Source of the DNA: Bacteriovorax sp.
Lineage (GTDB): Bacteria > Bdellovibrionota > Bacteriovoracia > Bacteriovoracales > Bacteriovoracaceae
Assembly (NCBI GenBank): GCA_014378525.1
Contig: JACMNL010000092.1
Location: 1-39,241 of the forward strand
Direction: 5' to 3'
DNA length: 39,241 nucleotides
Of the stretch, positions 1,438 to 8,508 are shown in pieces (the stretch's first letter is position 1; each line of letters begins with the position of its first letter). The translations under genes and the position numbers were made by a program. The notes beneath the pieces are model-generated. The model was not told the DNA's origin. It saw nothing but the letters and a program-made list of their open reading frames with translations, and did not search any database.

Positions 1438-2799
1438 ATGGGAATTTTCATTAACCGTACTCTTAACTTAAAAAAAATCAAGGCCATCGGCTTTGACATG
1501 GACTATACGATCGTTCGCTACAATTCAGAAGCTTTCGAAGAGTTCACTCACCAGGAAACATTAAAAAAACTGGTCCACGACAAAAATTATCCTGCAGAAA
1601 TTCTTAATCTAAAATTTGATTTTAAGCGTGTCATCCAGGGCCTTGTCATCGACAAGTCGAAAGGAAATCTTTTAAAAGTATCGCGCTTTGGAAAAGTAAA
1701 ATCTTCTTACCACGGACTCACTCCACTGGATTTCAAAGAGCAACAACGTCTCTACGGAACTGGCGTCATCGATTTAGGTGACCCGCACATTCAAAGTTTA
1801 GATACAAACTTCGCAGTCTCAAACGGAGTTCTCTACTCTCAACTTGTAGACTTAAAAACGAAGGGATTAAATCTTCCGGATTTCGATACACTTGCTGGGG
1901 AAATTAAAGACGCACTCGATGCGGCCCATTCAGACGGAACTTTAAAAAATCACGTCAGACAAAATATTTCAAAATATATTATTCAGGACCCTGAAGTTGT
2001 CGCACTTTTGGAGCGCTACAAACGTTACGGGAAAAAACTTCTGGTTATCACGAACTCGGATTTTAATTACACAAAACTTCTTCTCGATTACACAATCAAT
2101 CCTTTTTTAAAAGAACACAAGGACTGGTCTGAGCTTTTTGAAATTACTGTCACTCTCGCAAGCAAACCAAGATTCTTCACAACAAAAACTCCTTTTTTAA
2201 CTGTCGATCCTGTCACAGGAACAATGACGAACACAGAAAAGAAAATCGAAAAAGGAATTTATCAGGGTGGATACGCTGGTCGTCTGCAAAAAGATATGGG
2301 ACTTGAGGGCGATGAGATTCTCTATCTTGGAGATCATATCTACGGTGACGTTGTAACAATTAAAAAAACATTTAACTGGAGAACTGCTCTGGTATTGGAT
2401 CCTCTTGCTGAAGAAATCGACGCTATCAAAAAAAGTGCACCGATTCAGGCAGAGATCGATAAACAAATGATCATCAAGGAAGCACTTGAAACCAAACTTA
2501 ATCATTTTGATTTGAGAAAACATGAATTCAATGAAGAAATCCCAAAAGAAGATTTGAATGCTTTGTTTGCTGAAGTCGATAAAGTCAACGCAGTCATTTC
2601 TGATCTTCTCGATCAGCACCGTAAATTTTTCAATCCATACTGGGGAGAAATGATGAGGGCCGGCCTTGAAGAGTCACGCTTCGCTGACCAGGTGGAAAAG
2701 TACGCATGTATCTATATGACGAAGGTATCAGACCTGATTGAGTACTCACCTCGTACTTACTTCAGGCCTCAAAGAAGAGTTCTTTCACACGAATTATAA
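1438..2799 (+). CDS. HAD-IG family 5'-nucleotidase
   Basis: A 453-residue cytosolic phosphatase of the HAD superfamily, subfamily IG (PF05761, related to eukaryotic purine 5'-nucleotidase). It should dephosphorylate nucleoside monophosphates. Motif I is FDMDYTIV with nucleophile Asp20 and acid/base Asp22; motif II is the LLVITNS stretch near residue 200; a lysine near residue 242 (SKPRFF) fits motif III; motif IV is EILYLGDHIYGD near 300. The C-terminal third (about 340-453) is the helical extension usual in this family. No signal peptide. The start follows a weak ACGAGG about 12 bases upstream; the protein begins close to the core fold, so the start is likely right. It stands alone between two terminators. 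The exact substrate cannot be read from sequence. Confidence 0.88.
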   Translation: MGIFINRTLNLKKIKAIGFDMDYTIVRYNSEAFEEFTHQETLKKLVHDKNYPAEILNLKFDFKRVIQGLVIDKSKGNLLKVSRFGKVKSSYHGLTPLDFKEQQRLYGTGVIDLGDPHIQSLDTNFAVSNGVLYSQLVDLKTKGLNLPDFDTLAGEIKDALDAAHSDGTLKNHVRQNISKYIIQDPEVVALLERYKRYGKKLLVITNSDFNYTKLLLDYTINPFLKEHKDWSELFEITVTLASKPRFFTTKTPFLTVDPVTGTMTNTEKKIEKGIYQGGYAGRLQKDMGLEGDEILYLGDHIYGDVVTIKKTFNWRTALVLDPLAEEIDAIKKSAPIQAEIDKQMIIKEALETKLNHFDLRKHEFNEEIPKEDLNALFAEVDKVNAVISDLLDQHRKFFNPYWGEMMRAGLEESRFADQVEKYACIYMTKVSDLIEYSPRTYFRPQRRVLSHEL

Positions 2800-2832
2800 A
2801 AAAAAAGGCCTTCGTAATGAAGGCCTTTTTTT
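2800..2832. terminator. Bidirectional terminator
   Basis: AAAAAAAGGCCTTC (2800-2813), loop GTAAT, GAAGGCCTTTTTTT (2819-2832). It serves the nucleotidase on the plus strand and the small secreted protein on the minus strand, whose stop codon lies on its edge. Confidence 0.9.
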
Positions 2833-3112
2833 ATAATACTTTCTTCTTTTTCTTTTTGTGGTGTTTAGTTCCAATCTGTCTTACGCATTCATCGTAACCT
2901 TGTTCAGATTCAGTGATTGTTTTACCTTCTTTAGTTACACAACCAGCAGTTGAAATTTTTCCGTTGGTCTTTACTTCTTTGCCAGCGCCATCTGAAGATG
3001 TTTTGACATCGGTCTTATAATCTTTTTCATCACCGTTTCTTGGTGTTGTTGATTGAGCGTAAAGTGTTCCTGCAAGTGTTGTTGAAAGAATGATTGTTAA
3101 TAAGTATTTCAT
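2831..3112 (-). CDS. Small secreted protein with lysine-rich tail
   Basis: A 93-residue protein with a clear Sec signal peptide (MKYLLTIILSTTLAGTLYA, cleavage after the Ala of LYA) and a charged, flexible mature part. Two cysteines (in AGCVTKEGK and YDECVRQ) about 18 residues apart could form a disulfide. The C-terminus is a run of histidine and lysine (KHHKKKKKK). The ATG at 3110-3112 is chosen over an upstream in-frame GTG because GGAG lies eight bases before it and the signal peptide begins there. I do not recognise a family. The basic tail would suit binding to an acidic surface polymer or nucleic acid, but that is only a guess. Confidence 0.78.
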   Translation of the reverse strand: MKYLLTIILSTTLAGTLYAQSTTPRNGDEKDYKTDVKTSSDGAGKEVKTNGKISTAGCVTKEGKTITESEQGYDECVRQIGTKHHKKKKKKVL

Positions 3113-3154
3113 ATTGGTCTCCACTAAGTGTTGCTCTCTACAGACTAATACGCC

Positions 3155-4153
3155 TTACTTTTTTTGAAAAGAGGTATTCTCTCCTACAAATTTTAAAAAC
3201 TGCAGGTAGATTTCCCATGACTTCTCGCCGTAGCCGCCGGCCATAACATAAGACTGGGGAATATTTCTTGATTTGAAAAACTGGTAGAGAAATTTATCGC
3301 GGTTAAGCATCTGTTCTTTTGTCAGATTAATAAACGATGCACTTGGGAGTTCATCCAGCTCATAGGGATCTGCACCATTGACGACTATAACCAAATCCGG
3401 ATTCGGAGCTGACTCATCAAGTTCAAGTAGTCCTGCTTCAAGTCTGGCCAGGTATTGATCATCTTCACCGACATCAATTCCGACATCAACTGTAGAAGGA
3501 ATAAACCAGGGATCGCGGACTGTTCCGGAATTAAGCGGCCATCCTTCCTTCATATGAATCGAGAATGTTTTTATCGATGAATCATTTTTAAAAATTTCCG
3601 GAGCACCGTCACCTTTATGAACATCAACATCCACAATCCACGCCGTTTTGATTAATCCATCGGCCTGCATTTTTCTGAGTGTGATCGCCATATCATTCAC
3701 CAGACAAAACCCGCGTCCGGCAAAACTCATCGCATGGTGCATTCCACCACCGAGATAATAACTGAATCCATTTTTAAGAGCGTACATACTTGAAGCATTC
3801 GTCATCGAAACCTGAAGCAAAATTGTATCGAGCAATTCTTTCCAGTCTCTCTTTTGATTTTTCGGATTGAATCTTTCAAATTGTCCGTCGCTGTTGACCA
3901 GTTCATAACAGCGATAAATTTCTTCCTGTCGTTCAAGTGCAGTTCCAAAAAGTCTGTGCATGAAATCTTTGGTGTGAACTCTTTCAAGATCGGCCCGGGA
4001 AATTTTATCTAAGGATTTTAAATTGGTGTACTGAAGAAAAGGATAAAGAAACTGAAGGGCCGAAAAAACGTGGGATGCACGATCATCCACGATTGGGATT
4101 TCGATTCCATATTCACTAAATCGAAGATCACAATCGGGATGATAAAAAATCAT
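3155..4153 (-). CDS. Histone-deacetylase-fold hydrolase (arginase/deacetylase superfamily)
   Basis: A 332-residue cytosolic Zn-dependent deacylase of the HDAC/acetylpolyamine amidohydrolase family. The tandem active-site histidines are His139-His140 (LGGGMHHAM), the chelating motif is VDVDVHKGDG with metal ligands Asp177 and His179, and the third ligand is Asp262 (NGADPYELDEL). GFCLVND (148-154) and MAGGYG near 307 are also family hallmarks. The usual HHGDG is HKGDG here; the changed residue is not a metal ligand. Bacterial members act on acetylated small molecules or proteins; the substrate is not visible. The start lies four bases after the stop of the secreted protein upstream, so they probably share a transcript, though their functions look unrelated. 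Confidence 0.85.
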   Translation of the reverse strand: MIFYHPDCDLRFSEYGIEIPIVDDRASHVFSALQFLYPFLQYTNLKSLDKISRADLERVHTKDFMHRLFGTALERQEEIYRCYELVNSDGQFERFNPKNQKRDWKELLDTILLQVSMTNASSMYALKNGFSYYLGGGMHHAMSFAGRGFCLVNDMAITLRKMQADGLIKTAWIVDVDVHKGDGAPEIFKNDSSIKTFSIHMKEGWPLNSGTVRDPWFIPSTVDVGIDVGEDDQYLARLEAGLLELDESAPNPDLVIVVNGADPYELDELPSASFINLTKEQMLNRDKFLYQFFKSRNIPQSYVMAGGYGEKSWEIYLQFLKFVGENTSFQKK

Positions 4154-4157
4154 TTAA

Positions 4158-4469
4158 TTAGAACCAAGTTGCCTGACATTCAATTTGTGCCCAGGCCTGT
4201 GCCATTGGATCGTAGAAGTTAGAGTGTACATAAACATCAACGAAAGCACCTGGAGCGATGATAACATTGTTGGCATACGCGTTTAAAACTACACCCTGGA
4301 ATGTTCTTCCGAAAGCATAACCAGAACAAGCTACGGGCTGAAAATTTGTATTGAAAACTCTTGCAACTGCTACCTGGTTGTTAACAAAAAATTGCATCTG
4401 AGGAACGAATGCAGATGCAGTTCCTGAAATGGTAAGAGTTGTGATTGCTGATAGAATAAATTTCTTCAT
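4158..4469 (-). CDS. Small secreted protein, unknown
   Basis: A 103-residue protein with a Sec signal peptide ending TASA and a mature part rich in aromatic residues, Asn and Val, probably a small beta sandwich. Its two cysteines (VACSGYAFG and IECQATWF) are placed to form one disulfide across the domain. The start is fixed by AGGAGATAATT before ATG. Downstream by four bases is the HDAC-fold gene. No family recognised. Confidence 0.75.
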   Translation of the reverse strand: MKKFILSAITTLTISGTASAFVPQMQFFVNNQVAVARVFNTNFQPVACSGYAFGRTFQGVVLNAYANNVIIAPGAFVDVYVHSNFYDPMAQAWAQIECQATWF

Positions 4470-4512: not shown

Positions 4513-5463
4513 TCATTTCTGCGCTGGTTTAGCAAGTGCGACATACTCTTCCAACTCTGCATTTTTTGGTAAATTTGAAGCAGCTTTTAGTAACGATTGC
4601 AGTTGATCCGGAGTTTTAGCACCACAAATCGCCACCGATAATTCCGGGAAACTTAAATTATAAGCAAGGGCCATCTCGAGGCCTGTGTGATGATTTTTAT
4701 CTAAAACAGGCCATAGGTTTTTCATGGCCTCAAACTTTGCTGAGTTGTCAGCGTCTTTCCACCACGGTGCCCATGAGCGGCAGTCACTCTTGTCGTAAAC
4801 TTTTCTTTTTTCATCAACACGTCCTGTGAGAATTCCCTTGTCGAGAGTTCCCCAGCTCATGAAGCTGATTTGTTTTTCTGATAAGTAGGGAAACAATTCT
4901 TCGCGGACATATTTATTCGTGAATAAATTAAATTCACTCTGAACGACTTCGATACGATCCACTTCAAATGCGCGGTTGAGATCATCAACATAGGTATTAC
5001 ATAAACCGATATGTTTGATTTTCCCCTGGTGTTTTGCCTTTGAAATCACTTCAATTGATTTTCTTATATCCACTTTTGAATCCGGCCAGTGAATCATGTA
5101 AAGGTCGATATAGTCTGTTTGTAAGTCGCGCAGTGACTGCTCGATCATTCTCTCGGTGACTTTCGGATCGTTGGTCATATCGACTCTTTTATTTTCGTGC
5201 CACGTGACTCCTGATTTAGAAACCAGGAAAACTTTTTCGCGCATTTGTTTGAACGCTTTTCCCATTCTGATTTCCGACATACCGAAACCATAAATCGGAG
5301 CAGTATCAAAAATTTTAATTCCGCCTTCATAAGCTGCGTGCAGAAGATCGATTGAAGCGCCTTCACTGATTTCACCAAACCCGTAACCACCACCTTCTCC
5401 ACTGATAGCAGCGCCACCGAAAGCGATTTGCAGAGGTCCGAGGGATTTAAGTAATTGCGTCAT
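4513..5463 (-). CDS. Aldo/keto reductase
   Basis: A 316-residue NADPH-dependent (beta/alpha)8 oxidoreductase. The catalytic tetrad is complete: Asp53 and Tyr58 (FDTAPIYGFG), Lys83 (LVSKSG) and His125 (YMIHWPDS). The cofactor-binding end is present around residues 262-290 (SVAICGAKTPDQL). Length and motif order fit the family exactly. AAGGA lies nine bases before ATG. The substrate is unknown. It is separated from the next minus-strand gene by about 40 bases without a clear terminator and is divergent from the nucleosidase-like gene at 5543. Confidence 0.9.
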   Translation of the reverse strand: MTQLLKSLGPLQIAFGGAAISGEGGGYGFGEISEGASIDLLHAAYEGGIKIFDTAPIYGFGMSEIRMGKAFKQMREKVFLVSKSGVTWHENKRVDMTNDPKVTERMIEQSLRDLQTDYIDLYMIHWPDSKVDIRKSIEVISKAKHQGKIKHIGLCNTYVDDLNRAFEVDRIEVVQSEFNLFTNKYVREELFPYLSEKQISFMSWGTLDKGILTGRVDEKRKVYDKSDCRSWAPWWKDADNSAKFEAMKNLWPVLDKNHHTGLEMALAYNLSFPELSVAICGAKTPDQLQSLLKAASNLPKNAELEEYVALAKPAQK

Positions 5464-5542: not shown

Positions 5543-6613
5543 ATGAAGTTATTAGTTTTCGCCCATCGCGGAGAGGCGCAGGCGTTTTTTAATGAATGGG
5601 AATTTCTTCCTGAAGAATTTTTCTTCACCGGCCTCTTCAAAAATAAAAATTATTATTTGCTCATCACGGGTGAAGGGCCGAAAGATGCCAGTGAAAAAAC
5701 GGTCGCGGTTCTTTCATCTTACAAAAATGAAATCACTGAAATTATCAACATCGGTATTGCCGGAAGTTTAACTCCCAAACTTTCTGTCGGCGACATGGCC
5801 TGGGTCAGATCGAGTTACGCTCAAAATGCCGAGCGATCGGAATTCAAATCCTACACGACTAAAAATCATACCAACATAGATTGCATCACTGCTTTTTCCA
5901 GGATCACTTCTCAAATTGAGCGAAAAACACTTTCTGCTTTCGCCGACATCGTCGACCGCGAGCTCTGGTCAATTGCCAGTGCCGGCCATCTCTTTCGAGT
6001 AGAAACATCAGCTCTGAAATTAATCTCTGACGATGCAGACAGCGTAGATATGTGCAAGCTTGTTAAAGACGAAGCACCGGCCATGTCTAAAAAACTTTTC
6101 ACTGAATTTCAGAAACACGAAATGAAACTTGCTTCAGTCAAACCGGTAGAGCTGGTTGCAAAATCAGATTCCATTGAAGATTATTTTTTAAATCACCCTA
6201 AATTTTATTTTACAACTTCACAGACCAGAAAACTTTCAACAGTCCTTCGTGGTTTGTCTCTTAAAAAAATTGCAGATGATACAGAATTAAAGAACATCGC
6301 CAATAAGCTCATCGAAGAAAACGCCAATGAAAAAACATCTAAAGAACTTAGTAAAATGTTTTTAAACAGTCTTAGTGAAAGACTCAACCCACTCAATACA
6401 AAAATCAAAGACAAAATAAACCAGAGCTTAAAACCACTTCTCGACTCCGGCGCCACTGTCACTTTTGATCCCGAGCTAGAACAGGAATATATCCAGATCA
6501 ATTATCAGGTTCGAAATACAAAAGACCAGAAACGACTTCAGCTCGCTCTTGAGCAGTTCAATTATCAAAAGATCAAAGATATCTTCGCGGGAAATTTGGG
6601 CGATGATGTTTGA
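5543..6613 (+). CDS. Nucleoside phosphorylase/MTA-SAH-nucleosidase-like protein with extra C-terminal domain
   Basis: The first ~185 of 356 residues have the purine-nucleosidase fold. Glu11 (GEAQAFF), the glycine-rich INIGIAGSL (68-76), VDRELWSIA (137-145, Glu140 in place of the ribose-binding ME pair) and SDDAD (162-166, catalytic Asp) line up with MTA/SAH nucleosidase. Residues ~200-356 form a charged, mostly helical extension of unknown fold ending in a beta-rich stretch; this makes the protein about 120 residues longer than classical MTAN. AAAGG stands seven bases before ATG. Its last codons overlap the radical SAM gene, so the products are made together. A nucleosidase beside a radical SAM enzyme suggests removal of 5'-deoxyadenosine, an inhibitory by-product that MTAN is known to cleave; alternatively it acts on the operon's own nucleoside substrate. 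Confidence 0.72.
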   Translation: MKLLVFAHRGEAQAFFNEWEFLPEEFFFTGLFKNKNYYLLITGEGPKDASEKTVAVLSSYKNEITEIINIGIAGSLTPKLSVGDMAWVRSSYAQNAERSEFKSYTTKNHTNIDCITAFSRITSQIERKTLSAFADIVDRELWSIASAGHLFRVETSALKLISDDADSVDMCKLVKDEAPAMSKKLFTEFQKHEMKLASVKPVELVAKSDSIEDYFLNHPKFYFTTSQTRKLSTVLRGLSLKKIADDTELKNIANKLIEENANEKTSKELSKMFLNSLSERLNPLNTKIKDKINQSLKPLLDSGATVTFDPELEQEYIQINYQVRNTKDQKRLQLALEQFNYQKIKDIFAGNLGDDV

Positions 6614-7655
6614 AAAAATCTTCATTGAAGAACATTTAGAAAATCACCCGAAAGTTCTGGAAATCCAGTCGCGCTTTCCCAACAGTGAATTCAAGTTCAT
6701 CAAAAAAGTGGAAGATGTTTTTGGAAGAGTGAAAAAACCTTACCTGCAAAAACGAACCAACCTGAATCTTTTTATCGGCGAGAAAAAAGGCCAGCTGGTA
6801 AAACCTGCTCCTCCGGCCTACGGGCTCAGCGGCGAACCACACTACTATTTTGTCCACGCCTACAATTGTATTTACGAATGCAATTATTGTTACCTTCAGG
6901 GATACTTCCAGTCTCCGGACATCGTGCTTTTTATCAATCACGAAGAAATCGGCAACGAAATAAAACGACTTGCACTCGAGCATGCAAAAAATTCTCCCGG
7001 AGAAAAAATCTGGTTTCACGCTGGTGAATACAGCGACTCACTGGCGCTTACGCACTTAACCGGTGAGCTTCCACACTACTTTAATCTTTTTAAAGAACTC
7101 CCCAATGCCTATCTGGAGTTGAGAACAAAATCTGTAAATATAAAGGAACTTGTTAAACTCGAACCTTCAGAAAATATCGTCATCAGTTTTTCACTCGCTC
7201 CCGAGCACAGAGCGAAGATGAACGACTTAAAAACGCCGGGACTGAAAGCGAGAATCGAAGCAATAAGAGAGTTGCATGAACTCGGCTTCCCTATCGGCAT
7301 CCACTTTGATCCGATTATCTACGACGACAAACTTGTCGAATCCTACACTCAGCTCATCGATCAGCTGACACTAGCACTTCCTCCCGAGGCCATCAGGTAT
7401 ATTTCCATCGGAGTCGTGCGCTTTACTAAAAATGTTTATCACCAGGTGATTAAAAATTATCCGGACTCGGATTTTCACGCCGATGACTTCACTAAAAGTT
7501 TTGACGGCAAGATCCGCTATAACCGCCCGACCCGCTTATGGATACTGGGAAAAGTTAAATCCCTTCTGGTAGACGCCGGAGTACCGGTCGAAAAAATTTA
7601 CGAATGCATGGAAGATGAAGATCAGGACGGGGAACAAAATGATTCTCTCTCGTGA
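6603..7655 (+). CDS. Spore-photoproduct-lyase-like radical SAM protein
   Basis: A 350-residue radical SAM enzyme of the SPL family. The cluster motif is Cys89-x3-Cys93-x2-Cys96 (NCIYECNYCYLQGY), nearly the same position as in Bacillus SPL, and the total length matches. The hydrogen-donor cysteine of true SPL (Cys141 in B. subtilis, next to a SD...HLT segment) aligns with Glu142 here (HAGEYSDSLALTHLT), so this is probably not a standard spore-photoproduct repair enzyme, and nothing else suggests spores. ATG at 6603 or the next codon is used rather than the longer open frame, because both overlap the upstream stop in ATGATGTTTGA. Overlaps the oxygenase gene by 17 bases. The chemistry of SPL-like proteins in non-spore-formers is not settled. 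Confidence 0.85.
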   Translation: MMFEKIFIEEHLENHPKVLEIQSRFPNSEFKFIKKVEDVFGRVKKPYLQKRTNLNLFIGEKKGQLVKPAPPAYGLSGEPHYYFVHAYNCIYECNYCYLQGYFQSPDIVLFINHEEIGNEIKRLALEHAKNSPGEKIWFHAGEYSDSLALTHLTGELPHYFNLFKELPNAYLELRTKSVNIKELVKLEPSENIVISFSLAPEHRAKMNDLKTPGLKARIEAIRELHELGFPIGIHFDPIIYDDKLVESYTQLIDQLTLALPPEAIRYISIGVVRFTKNVYHQVIKNYPDSDFHADDFTKSFDGKIRYNRPTRLWILGKVKSLLVDAGVPVEKIYECMEDEDQDGEQNDSLS

Positions 7656-8109
7656 TCTCGAAGAAAAAAATATTCTCGAAGTGAGCTTCCCTCTCCACCC
7701 CGACGTCATCAACTTACTTCACAATGAAGACTGGAAATCCATTGATCAGTATTTTCTTGAAGCAGCAAAACCTGGAGGGGTGCTATTTGAATTCCTTCAT
7801 ACATACCTTACCTTTCAAAGCATTGAGCACATCATCGCCATTAGAAGCGCTCCTGACGACGAAGACGGCATCTGGCACGACGATGGTTCACGCATTCTGG
7901 GTTTCACGGTATCGCTTACTGAAAAACCCGAACTCATAACTGGTGGTGAACTTCGTTTTAAGAAGAAAACAGATAGCGAATGGCAGACAGTTTCAACCCG
8001 TCATTTGGGCCAAATGTTGATGTTCAAGACGGGAATTTATGGTTTTGAGCACATGGTCACAGCTGTAACAAAGGGCAGAAGAATTATCATCGCCGGCTGG
8101 TGTTCATAG
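7639..8109 (+). CDS. Small 2-oxoglutarate/Fe(II)-dependent oxygenase
   Basis: A 156-residue double-stranded beta-helix oxygenase. The iron facial triad is His80-x-Asp82 (IWHDDG) and His138 (GFEHMV), and Arg147 or Arg148 (KGRRIIIAGW) would hold 2-oxoglutarate. The GGELRF loop at 102-107 is typical of the prolyl-hydroxylase/PKHD branch. The ATG at 7639 is preferred over an upstream in-frame start because GGGG lies eight bases ahead of it. The start lies inside the last codons of the radical SAM gene, so expression is coupled. It could hydroxylate a base, a nucleoside or a peptide; the operon points to a nucleic-acid or nucleoside substrate, but that is inference. Confidence 0.8.
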   Translation: MILSRDLEEKNILEVSFPLHPDVINLLHNEDWKSIDQYFLEAAKPGGVLFEFLHTYLTFQSIEHIIAIRSAPDDEDGIWHDDGSRILGFTVSLTEKPELITGGELRFKKKTDSEWQTVSTRHLGQMLMFKTGIYGFEHMVTAVTKGRRIIIAGWCS

Positions 8110-8246: not shown

Positions 8247-8480
8247 ATGGCACGCACATGTGATTTAACAGGAAAGAGAAGACTAGTTGCCAACAAGGTT
8301 TCTCACGCTAACAACAAAACAAAAACTAAGAAACAAGTTAACCTACATACTAAAAAAGTATTCGACCCTGAGACAAACTCAGTTGTTCGTCTAAGACTTT
8401 CAGCAAGTGCAATCCGTACACTTGATAAAGTTGGATCAATCTCTAAGTACGTTCGTAAGAACGCTGCAATGTTTGAATAA
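8247..8480 (+). CDS. rpmB: Ribosomal protein bL28
   Basis: A 77-residue basic protein with the full bL28 pattern: ARTCDLTGKR at the start, a lysine-rich middle and RLRLSASAIRTLDKVG near the end. It binds 23S rRNA in the large subunit. Only one of the zinc-ribbon cysteines found in some bL28 proteins is present, so it is the zinc-free form. AAGGA lies six bases before ATG. A TATAAT at 8214-8219 is the likely -10, with no convincing -35. A strong terminator follows, so it is a single-gene unit rather than paired with rpmG as in many bacteria. Confidence 0.97.
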   Translation: MARTCDLTGKRRLVANKVSHANNKTKTKKQVNLHTKKVFDPETNSVVRLRLSASAIRTLDKVGSISKYVRKNAAMFE

Positions 8481-8508
8481 CTATTAAAAAAAATATGTTT
8501 ATCTTAAG

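Follow-up and report, generated by a model that had tools for sequence, protein, structure and literature searches.

A nucleosidase-fold protein paired with a spore photoproduct lyase-like radical SAM protein in Bacteriovorax and its relatives

Introduction

The window, a 39,241-nt stretch of Bacteriovorax sp. contig JACMNL010000092.1, contains three plus-strand genes that overlap in series and encode a nucleosidase-fold protein (NUC), a radical S-adenosylmethionine (SAM) protein resembling spore photoproduct lyase (SPL) and a small 2-oxoglutarate (2OG)-Fe(II) oxygenase (OXY). The locus raises the question of whether the three products form a single system and, if so, which chemistry they share. 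A preliminary description of this DNA had proposed an operon for stepwise chemistry on a base or nucleoside, with 5'-deoxyadenosine being removed by the first protein. The gene overlaps on which it relied are exact, at 11 bases between NUC and the SPL-like gene and 17 bases between the SPL-like gene and OXY, and all three products score above the cut-offs of their Pfam families. Each is conserved as a protein in relatives, and the genes are therefore not chance open reading frames (ORFs). Comparison across genomes shows that the core of the locus is the pair of NUC and the SPL-like gene rather than an equal trio. We give about an even chance to the reading that NUC is a docked nucleosidase that clears 5'-deoxyadenosine from a SAM-consuming SPL-like enzyme, the pair forming one radical SAM machine. 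The features on which the argument draws, three of which the preliminary description overlooked (the C-terminal domain of NUC, the change from cysteine to Glu142 and the divergent reductase gene), are as follows.

5543-6613, plus strand: NUC, nucleosidase-fold protein, 356 residues; residues 1-~200 (5543-6142) resemble 5'-methylthioadenosine/S-adenosylhomocysteine (MTA/SAH) nucleosidase (MTAN) and residues ~210-356 (6170-6610) form an SPL-associated C-terminal domain
6170-6610, plus strand: C-terminal domain of NUC, helical and then beta-beta-alpha-alpha in the structure model
6603-7655, plus strand: SPL-like radical SAM protein, 350 residues, with the start at ATG 6603 or 6606
6867-6890, plus strand: CX3CX2C motif (Cys89, Cys93 and Cys96) for a [4Fe-4S] cluster, invariant in 24 of 24 aligned sequences
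7026-7028, plus strand: codon of Glu142, placed by alignments at the position of the hydrogen-donor cysteine of true SPL
7639-8109, plus strand: OXY, small 2OG-Fe(II) oxygenase, 156 residues, ATG at 7639; a loosely linked member
4513-5463, minus strand: aldo/keto reductase (AKR), divergent from NUC and 79 bp away; a probable functional neighbour, unproven

Conservation of the gene pair

The phylum was sampled through 290 genomes, some of them incomplete. SPL-like matches were found in 158 and were sorted by score into class 1 (78 genomes with E below 1e-100, including 74 from the family of the window), class 2 (about 1e-43 to 1e-66) and class 3 (1e-33 to 1e-39; 17 genomes, with the motif read in three). 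Three genomes with intermediate SPL scores (G118, G140 and G191) and two with very weak ones (G079 and G225) were left unclassified. Matches to NUC that were short (1e-16 to 1e-17; G050, G059 and G183) or weaker still, the latter mostly from frames of 180-300 residues, were not counted as NUC.

NUC with its C-terminal domain lies on the same contig as the class-1 SPL gene in all 78 genomes and within 60 bp of it in 77, distances being taken between match ends rather than ORF ends. In the exception (G295) the two are separated by an 840-bp gap that holds a frame on the opposite strand. Both genes point in the same direction in 61 of the 61 genomes in which the loci were read. Fragmentation affects a few of these assignments: NUC is split across contigs in G280, G207 and G292, where only its C-terminal piece is paired with SPL, and in G205 SPL is split and the piece adjoining NUC was used. 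Eleven genomes of the family without a listed SPL match also lack a NUC match. Scanning contigs from all species for short exact patterns gave 17 loci, and every one came from a Bacteriovorax, Halobacteriovorax, Bacteriovoracaceae or Bdellovibrionales record. Beyond Bdellovibrionota coverage was thin, consisting of plasmid-collection records, among which NUC had no match, and the protein matches listed. No NUC/SPL-like pairing was found among the matches listed in a literature search of open-licence PMC papers.

A 623-residue Fusobacterium protein apparently fuses NUC-type and SPL-like halves. Its C-terminal half is SPL-like (207 bits) and residues 1-300 score 28.6 bits with the NUC profile, while the best of 2000 shuffles reached 18.9 bits and the second 7.5. 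The best 120 of its 471 homologues are all 623 residues long and 92-97% identical. In a FastTree phylogeny of 41 proteins it groups with class 1 (support 0.967) if the root is placed on SplB and its kin.

OXY behaves differently. With presence defined as E 1e-20 or better (weaker matches in G002, G105, G135, G216 and G254 being left out), it is found in 61 of the 78 class-1 genomes, is missing from 17 and occurs in 14 genomes without a class-1 SPL. Its distance from SPL is at most 60 bp in 21 of the 78 and at most 5 kb in 52, and at four loci (L033, L037, L038 and L041) opposite-strand genes stand between the two. OXY is thus an optional neighbour of the pair. The expectation that the trio would be conserved across genomes consequently holds for the nucleosidase and the radical SAM protein, whose association the apparent fusion also favours, and fails for the oxygenase as an equal member.

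The SPL-like protein

The SPL-like protein is a member of PF20903 (SPL; E 8.6e-25, 87.8 bits against a gathering score of 27) and, judged by its CX3CX2C motif, belongs to the radical SAM superfamily, with PF04055 scoring 23.3 bits against a cut-off of 29.5. It falls well short of the model for true SPL (TIGR04070; 90.2 bits, 400 required) and of that for the SPL family (TIGR03886; 104.8 bits, cut-off 437.55). Alignment with the solved SPL structures and Bacillus SplB places Glu142 opposite the hydrogen-donor cysteine (C141 Bs / C140 Gt), so that the protein lacks the cysteine of true SPL. Glu142 is part of a GE pair that does not vary among the 24 sequences aligned, and neither do two tyrosines at the positions of SPL Tyr96 and Tyr98, and a HAGE motif is present in 120 of 120 homologues among the matches listed. 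In the 41-protein alignment behind the phylogeny, which includes 17 class-1 loci and not all those at hand, the donor position is cysteine in SplB and four proteins annotated as SPL family, and glutamate in all class-1 (17) and class-2 (12) proteins used as well as in three others annotated as SPL family (from Deinococcus, Roseomonas and Streptomyces). It is glutamine in three class-3 proteins and tyrosine in the Fusobacterium protein.

SplB (PDB entries 4fhc-4fhg, 4rh0 and 4k9r; profile E 2.7e-24) shares the common radical SAM domain, the CX3CX2C motif and the two tyrosines. In Bacillus its gene comes after an SplA-domain gene, whereas here the SPL-like gene is overlapped by a nucleosidase-type gene and Glu142 replaces the cysteine. 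Proteins named SPL family under TIGR03886 (Deinococcus, Streptomyces and Roseomonas) have glutamate at the cysteine position in three of the seven placed in the tree, and no nucleosidase occurs in the annotated neighbourhoods read, the gene tables of which are incomplete. Repair genes are present in three of the seven annotated neighbourhoods read for other SPL-family genes (uracil-DNA glycosylase and DinB; photolyase family; DNA ligase). Two papers report the induction by UV of an SPL-family gene in Curtobacterium (PMC12029717) and, from gene neighbourhoods, a link of SplB-like proteins to SOS repair systems (PMC3765255). A Roseomonas plasmid (L137) carries two overlapping SPL-family genes in tandem (2299-3354 and 3344-4420) directly after repA-repB, one with glutamate and the other with cysteine at the donor position.

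The nucleosidase-fold protein

NUC matches PF01048 above the Pfam cut-off (1.7e-10, best stretch residues 16-90), and the gathering score together with the MTAN fold places it in this superfamily. Glu11, Glu140 and Asp163 are invariant in 30 of 30 aligned sequences. By profile alignment Glu140 and Asp163 correspond to the catalytic glutamate and aspartate of MTAN; Glu11 was assigned by position only. Scores against the models for characterized functions remain far below the cut-offs, both for MTA/SAH nucleosidase (TIGR01704, 19.2 versus 73.8 bits; NF004079, 26.4 versus 169) and for HpnG (TIGR03468, 17.4 versus 187.1) and the futalosine hydrolase MqnB (TIGR03664, 30.7 versus 124.7). NUC further differs from MTA/SAH nucleosidase (MTAN, MtnN) in its additional SPL-linked C-terminal domain and in having arginine, not methionine, before the glutamate in 119 of 120 homologues among the matches listed.

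The C-terminal domain comprises ~150 residues. Pfam searches gave a scatter of hits, with no family in more than two of 14 members and none convincing. Its profile matched eIF2-alpha in the PDB (0.0026) and otherwise mostly apolipoprotein helices. No known fold emerged for it, the fold search with the whole model being filled by matches to the MTAN domain.

Eight genomes (G024, G029, G083, G159, G184, G213, G221 and G296) encode a NUC of ~190-220 residues without this domain and apart from SPL. None of the eight has a class-1 SPL and all are among the 17 class-3 genomes, the remaining nine of which have no NUC match better than ~1e-16. The nucleosidase domain thus tends to go with SPL-like genes, and the C-terminal domain, present with class-1 SPL and missing from the short-NUC genomes, goes with class 1.

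Another gene overlaps or closely precedes each of the 13 class-2 SPL genes examined. At two loci from another Bdellovibrionota family (L073, 4024-4959; L074, 3847-4827) this partner, directly upstream of and overlapping the SPL-like gene, encodes a ParB_N domain and is possibly a DNA-bound ParB-type partner of the enzyme. A comparison by hhalign finds the C-terminus of this partner similar to the one of NUC (E 2.2e-4, probability 45%). The NUC profile also matches partner genes at four further loci and a partner-type gene at a fifth (1.4e-8 to 2.4e-7). A nucleosidase and a ParB-type domain attached to what seems to be the same SPL-linked domain would point to an SPL-partner domain without a convincing Pfam family.

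Proposed function

True SPL belongs to the small number of radical SAM enzymes considered to regenerate SAM, its cysteine being the likely hydrogen donor; the C141A variant is reported to form 5'-deoxyadenosine in an amount equal to product, without regeneration of SAM and with one SAM used per turnover (PMC3742179). With glutamate in place of the hydrogen-returning cysteine, the SPL-like enzyme would likewise consume one SAM per reaction and form 5'-deoxyadenosine once per turnover. Since 5'-deoxyadenosine inhibits radical SAM enzymes (PMC8102628), it would have to be cleared where it arises. The best reading of a nucleosidase linked to an SPL-like enzyme not expected to regenerate SAM is therefore that it serves this removal, as the preliminary description had suggested for the first protein. 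NUC is predicted to dock through its C-terminal domain and to split the freed 5'-deoxyadenosine; speculatively, AKR might then reduce the resulting 5-deoxyribose. The adjacency of the two genes in many relatives and the apparent occurrence of a similar pair as one Fusobacterium protein suggest that NUC and the SPL-like protein work as one machine. The substrate of the SPL-like enzyme is probably a nucleic acid, given its kinship with SPL, the repair-gene neighbours and the UV induction in Curtobacterium, and repair or modification of DNA or RNA by the pair is possible. We infer three elements of the scheme: 5'-deoxyadenosine as the substrate of NUC, contact between NUC and the SPL-like protein, and radical chemistry on nucleic acid. 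If true, an SPL branch with glutamate and a tied nucleosidase would illustrate how a radical enzyme deals with the inhibitor that it produces, and two purifiable proteins would offer a simple biochemical route to SPL-like function in bacteria, Deinococcus and Roseomonas among them, for which endospores are not known.

Several observations weigh against a docked nucleosidase of this kind. Two genomes of the window's own genus (G002 and G009) have neither NUC nor the SPL-like gene. The glutamate in class-2 and in three SPL-family proteins means that Glu142 does not set nucleosidase-linked enzymes apart, and a search near class-2 SPL at E 1e-4 gave no NUC match; the apparent Fusobacterium fusion has tyrosine, not glutamate, at this position. 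In the nucleosidase half of that protein PF01048 scores 15.1, below the cut-off of 25.1, its first 200 residues as a single sequence retrieve MTAN from the PDB with an E-value of no better than 0.22 and after matches at chance level, and the best shuffle score given above came from one of the 2000. Kinship of the NUC C-terminal domain with the class-2 partners is weak: the hhalign probability is 45%, and the NUC profile gave no match at E 1e-4 among the 13 partner genes (L073-L084 and L088) and none to the partner gene of L130. The short NUC unlinked from SPL in eight genomes suggests that NUC can act alone, and G050 runs opposite to the trend, having a NUC-like gene that is short (4.2e-17) but no SPL match among those listed. 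The distance of NUC from the MTAN, futalosine hydrolase and HpnG cut-offs implies that its substrate could differ. Finally, the other PF01048 genes above cut-off in the source genome encode one purine nucleoside phosphorylase and one MTA phosphorylase; an MTA phosphorylase of a cyanobacterium cleaves 5'-deoxyadenosine (PMC8102628), so that a second enzyme for this compound is not strictly needed.

AKR is divergent from NUC and within 400 bp of it in 51 of the 61 genomes examined, and lies ~4.3 kb upstream instead in five named Bacteriovorax-type records. It adjoins the short NUC in five of the eight short-NUC genomes. A set of 20 loci contained AKR in 20, OXY in 12 and HDAC in four, the flanks stopping short of the HDAC place in some. 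This neighbour would fit adenosylation, an unlikely alternative, though the strongest of the rivals: the SPL-like enzyme would add the 5'-deoxyadenosyl radical to a substrate, NUC would remove adenine and AKR could reduce the ribosyl adduct. Radical SAM enzymes and PF01048-type enzymes are likewise paired in MqnE/MTAN. Precedent for adenosylation comes from hopanoid side-chain synthesis, where the radical is added by HpnH and adenine is removed afterwards by HpnG, a PF01048-type partner (PMC12583986). HpnG is among the weak family matches of NUC, and without the hydrogen donor a substrate radical would be able to persist. However, the SPL branch is distinct from that of HpnH, the invariant tyrosines hint at hydrogen abstraction of the SPL type and no adduct is known. 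The radical SAM families and the substrates of HpnH/HpnG and MqnE/MTAN also differ from those here, gene overlap and apparent fusion being features of the present pair.

The three-step base chemistry of the preliminary description, in which the SPL-like protein and OXY would alter a base and a glycosylase-like NUC would cut the base or nucleoside, fares worse and is improbable. It draws on the kinship with SPL, on the repair genes near SPL-family genes and on the 21 genomes of 78 with a tight trio. Set against it are the dispensability of OXY, which also occurs where class-1 SPL does not, and the use of free nucleosides as substrates by PF01048 enzymes. The predicted nature of OXY argues in the same direction. 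OXY is a member of PF13640 (1.3e-7, 33 versus 27 bits) with an iron/2OG set (His80, Asp82, His138 and Arg148) invariant in 20 of 20 sequences, and its model (predicted local distance difference test, pLDDT, 96.5) is nearest to PHD2, bacterial prolyl-4-hydroxylase and PiuC-type enzymes, from which it differs in having only 156 residues. Against the PDB the single sequence had no match and the profile one weak match, to prolyl 3-hydroxylase 1 (E 0.051). The AlkB fold was not among the best 50 structural matches listed, an absence that does not exclude AlkB. OXY is probably a protein hydroxylase on the basis of this model.

Slightly less probable again is that NUC is a general purine nucleosidase that stands in for MTAN and is linked to the SPL-like gene by no more than a common operon. 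The source genome (93% complete) has no other MTAN-type gene above cut-off, and the short NUC occurs apart from SPL in eight genomes, beside AKR in five. The constant adjacency, the class-1-linked domain and the apparent fusion are nevertheless hard to explain by chance, and the joint absence of NUC and SPL from 11 genomes of the family is unexpected for a housekeeping enzyme. A more elaborate scheme is a long shot: an SPL-type enzyme would adenosylate a DNA or RNA base, NUC would strip the adenine to leave a ribosyl-marked base and AKR would reduce the sugar, the whole being a swappable module in which the docking domain carries a nucleosidase or a ParB-type domain according to lineage. That NUC is MqnB of futalosine menaquinone synthesis, for which there is the weak TIGR03664 match, can be dismissed as highly improbable: no PF02621 (MqnA/MqnD) match was found in the 93% complete source genome, whereas four of 14 control genomes match.

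Genomic context

The closest named records to the locus are Bacteriovorax and Bacteriovoracaceae assemblies. The source genome (3.6 Mb, 144 contigs) has 24 radical SAM matches and, elsewhere, a DNA photolyase domain gene (G000 C16 38297-38782), so that light-dependent repair may coexist with the SPL-like enzyme. No SOS or other shared operator emerged upstream of NUC: among 58 upstream stretches no 4+4 dyad exceeded shuffles (the commonest occurred in five, the shuffle maximum also being five) and five LexA-like dyads occurred in none. A role in anti-phage defence was also considered and rejected, PADLOC giving no match for NUC, the SPL-like protein or the ParB-type partner and only its generic '2OG' model for OXY (2.9e-10). 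Downstream of OXY (8248-8481) is an rpmB-like gene (ribosomal protein L28, judged by eye), and an L28-like gene also follows OXY in L033, L037, L038 and L041. At the other side of the locus, two small overlapping minus-strand genes that are alike (341-598 and 580-855) appear by eye to be of the helix-turn-helix regulator type.

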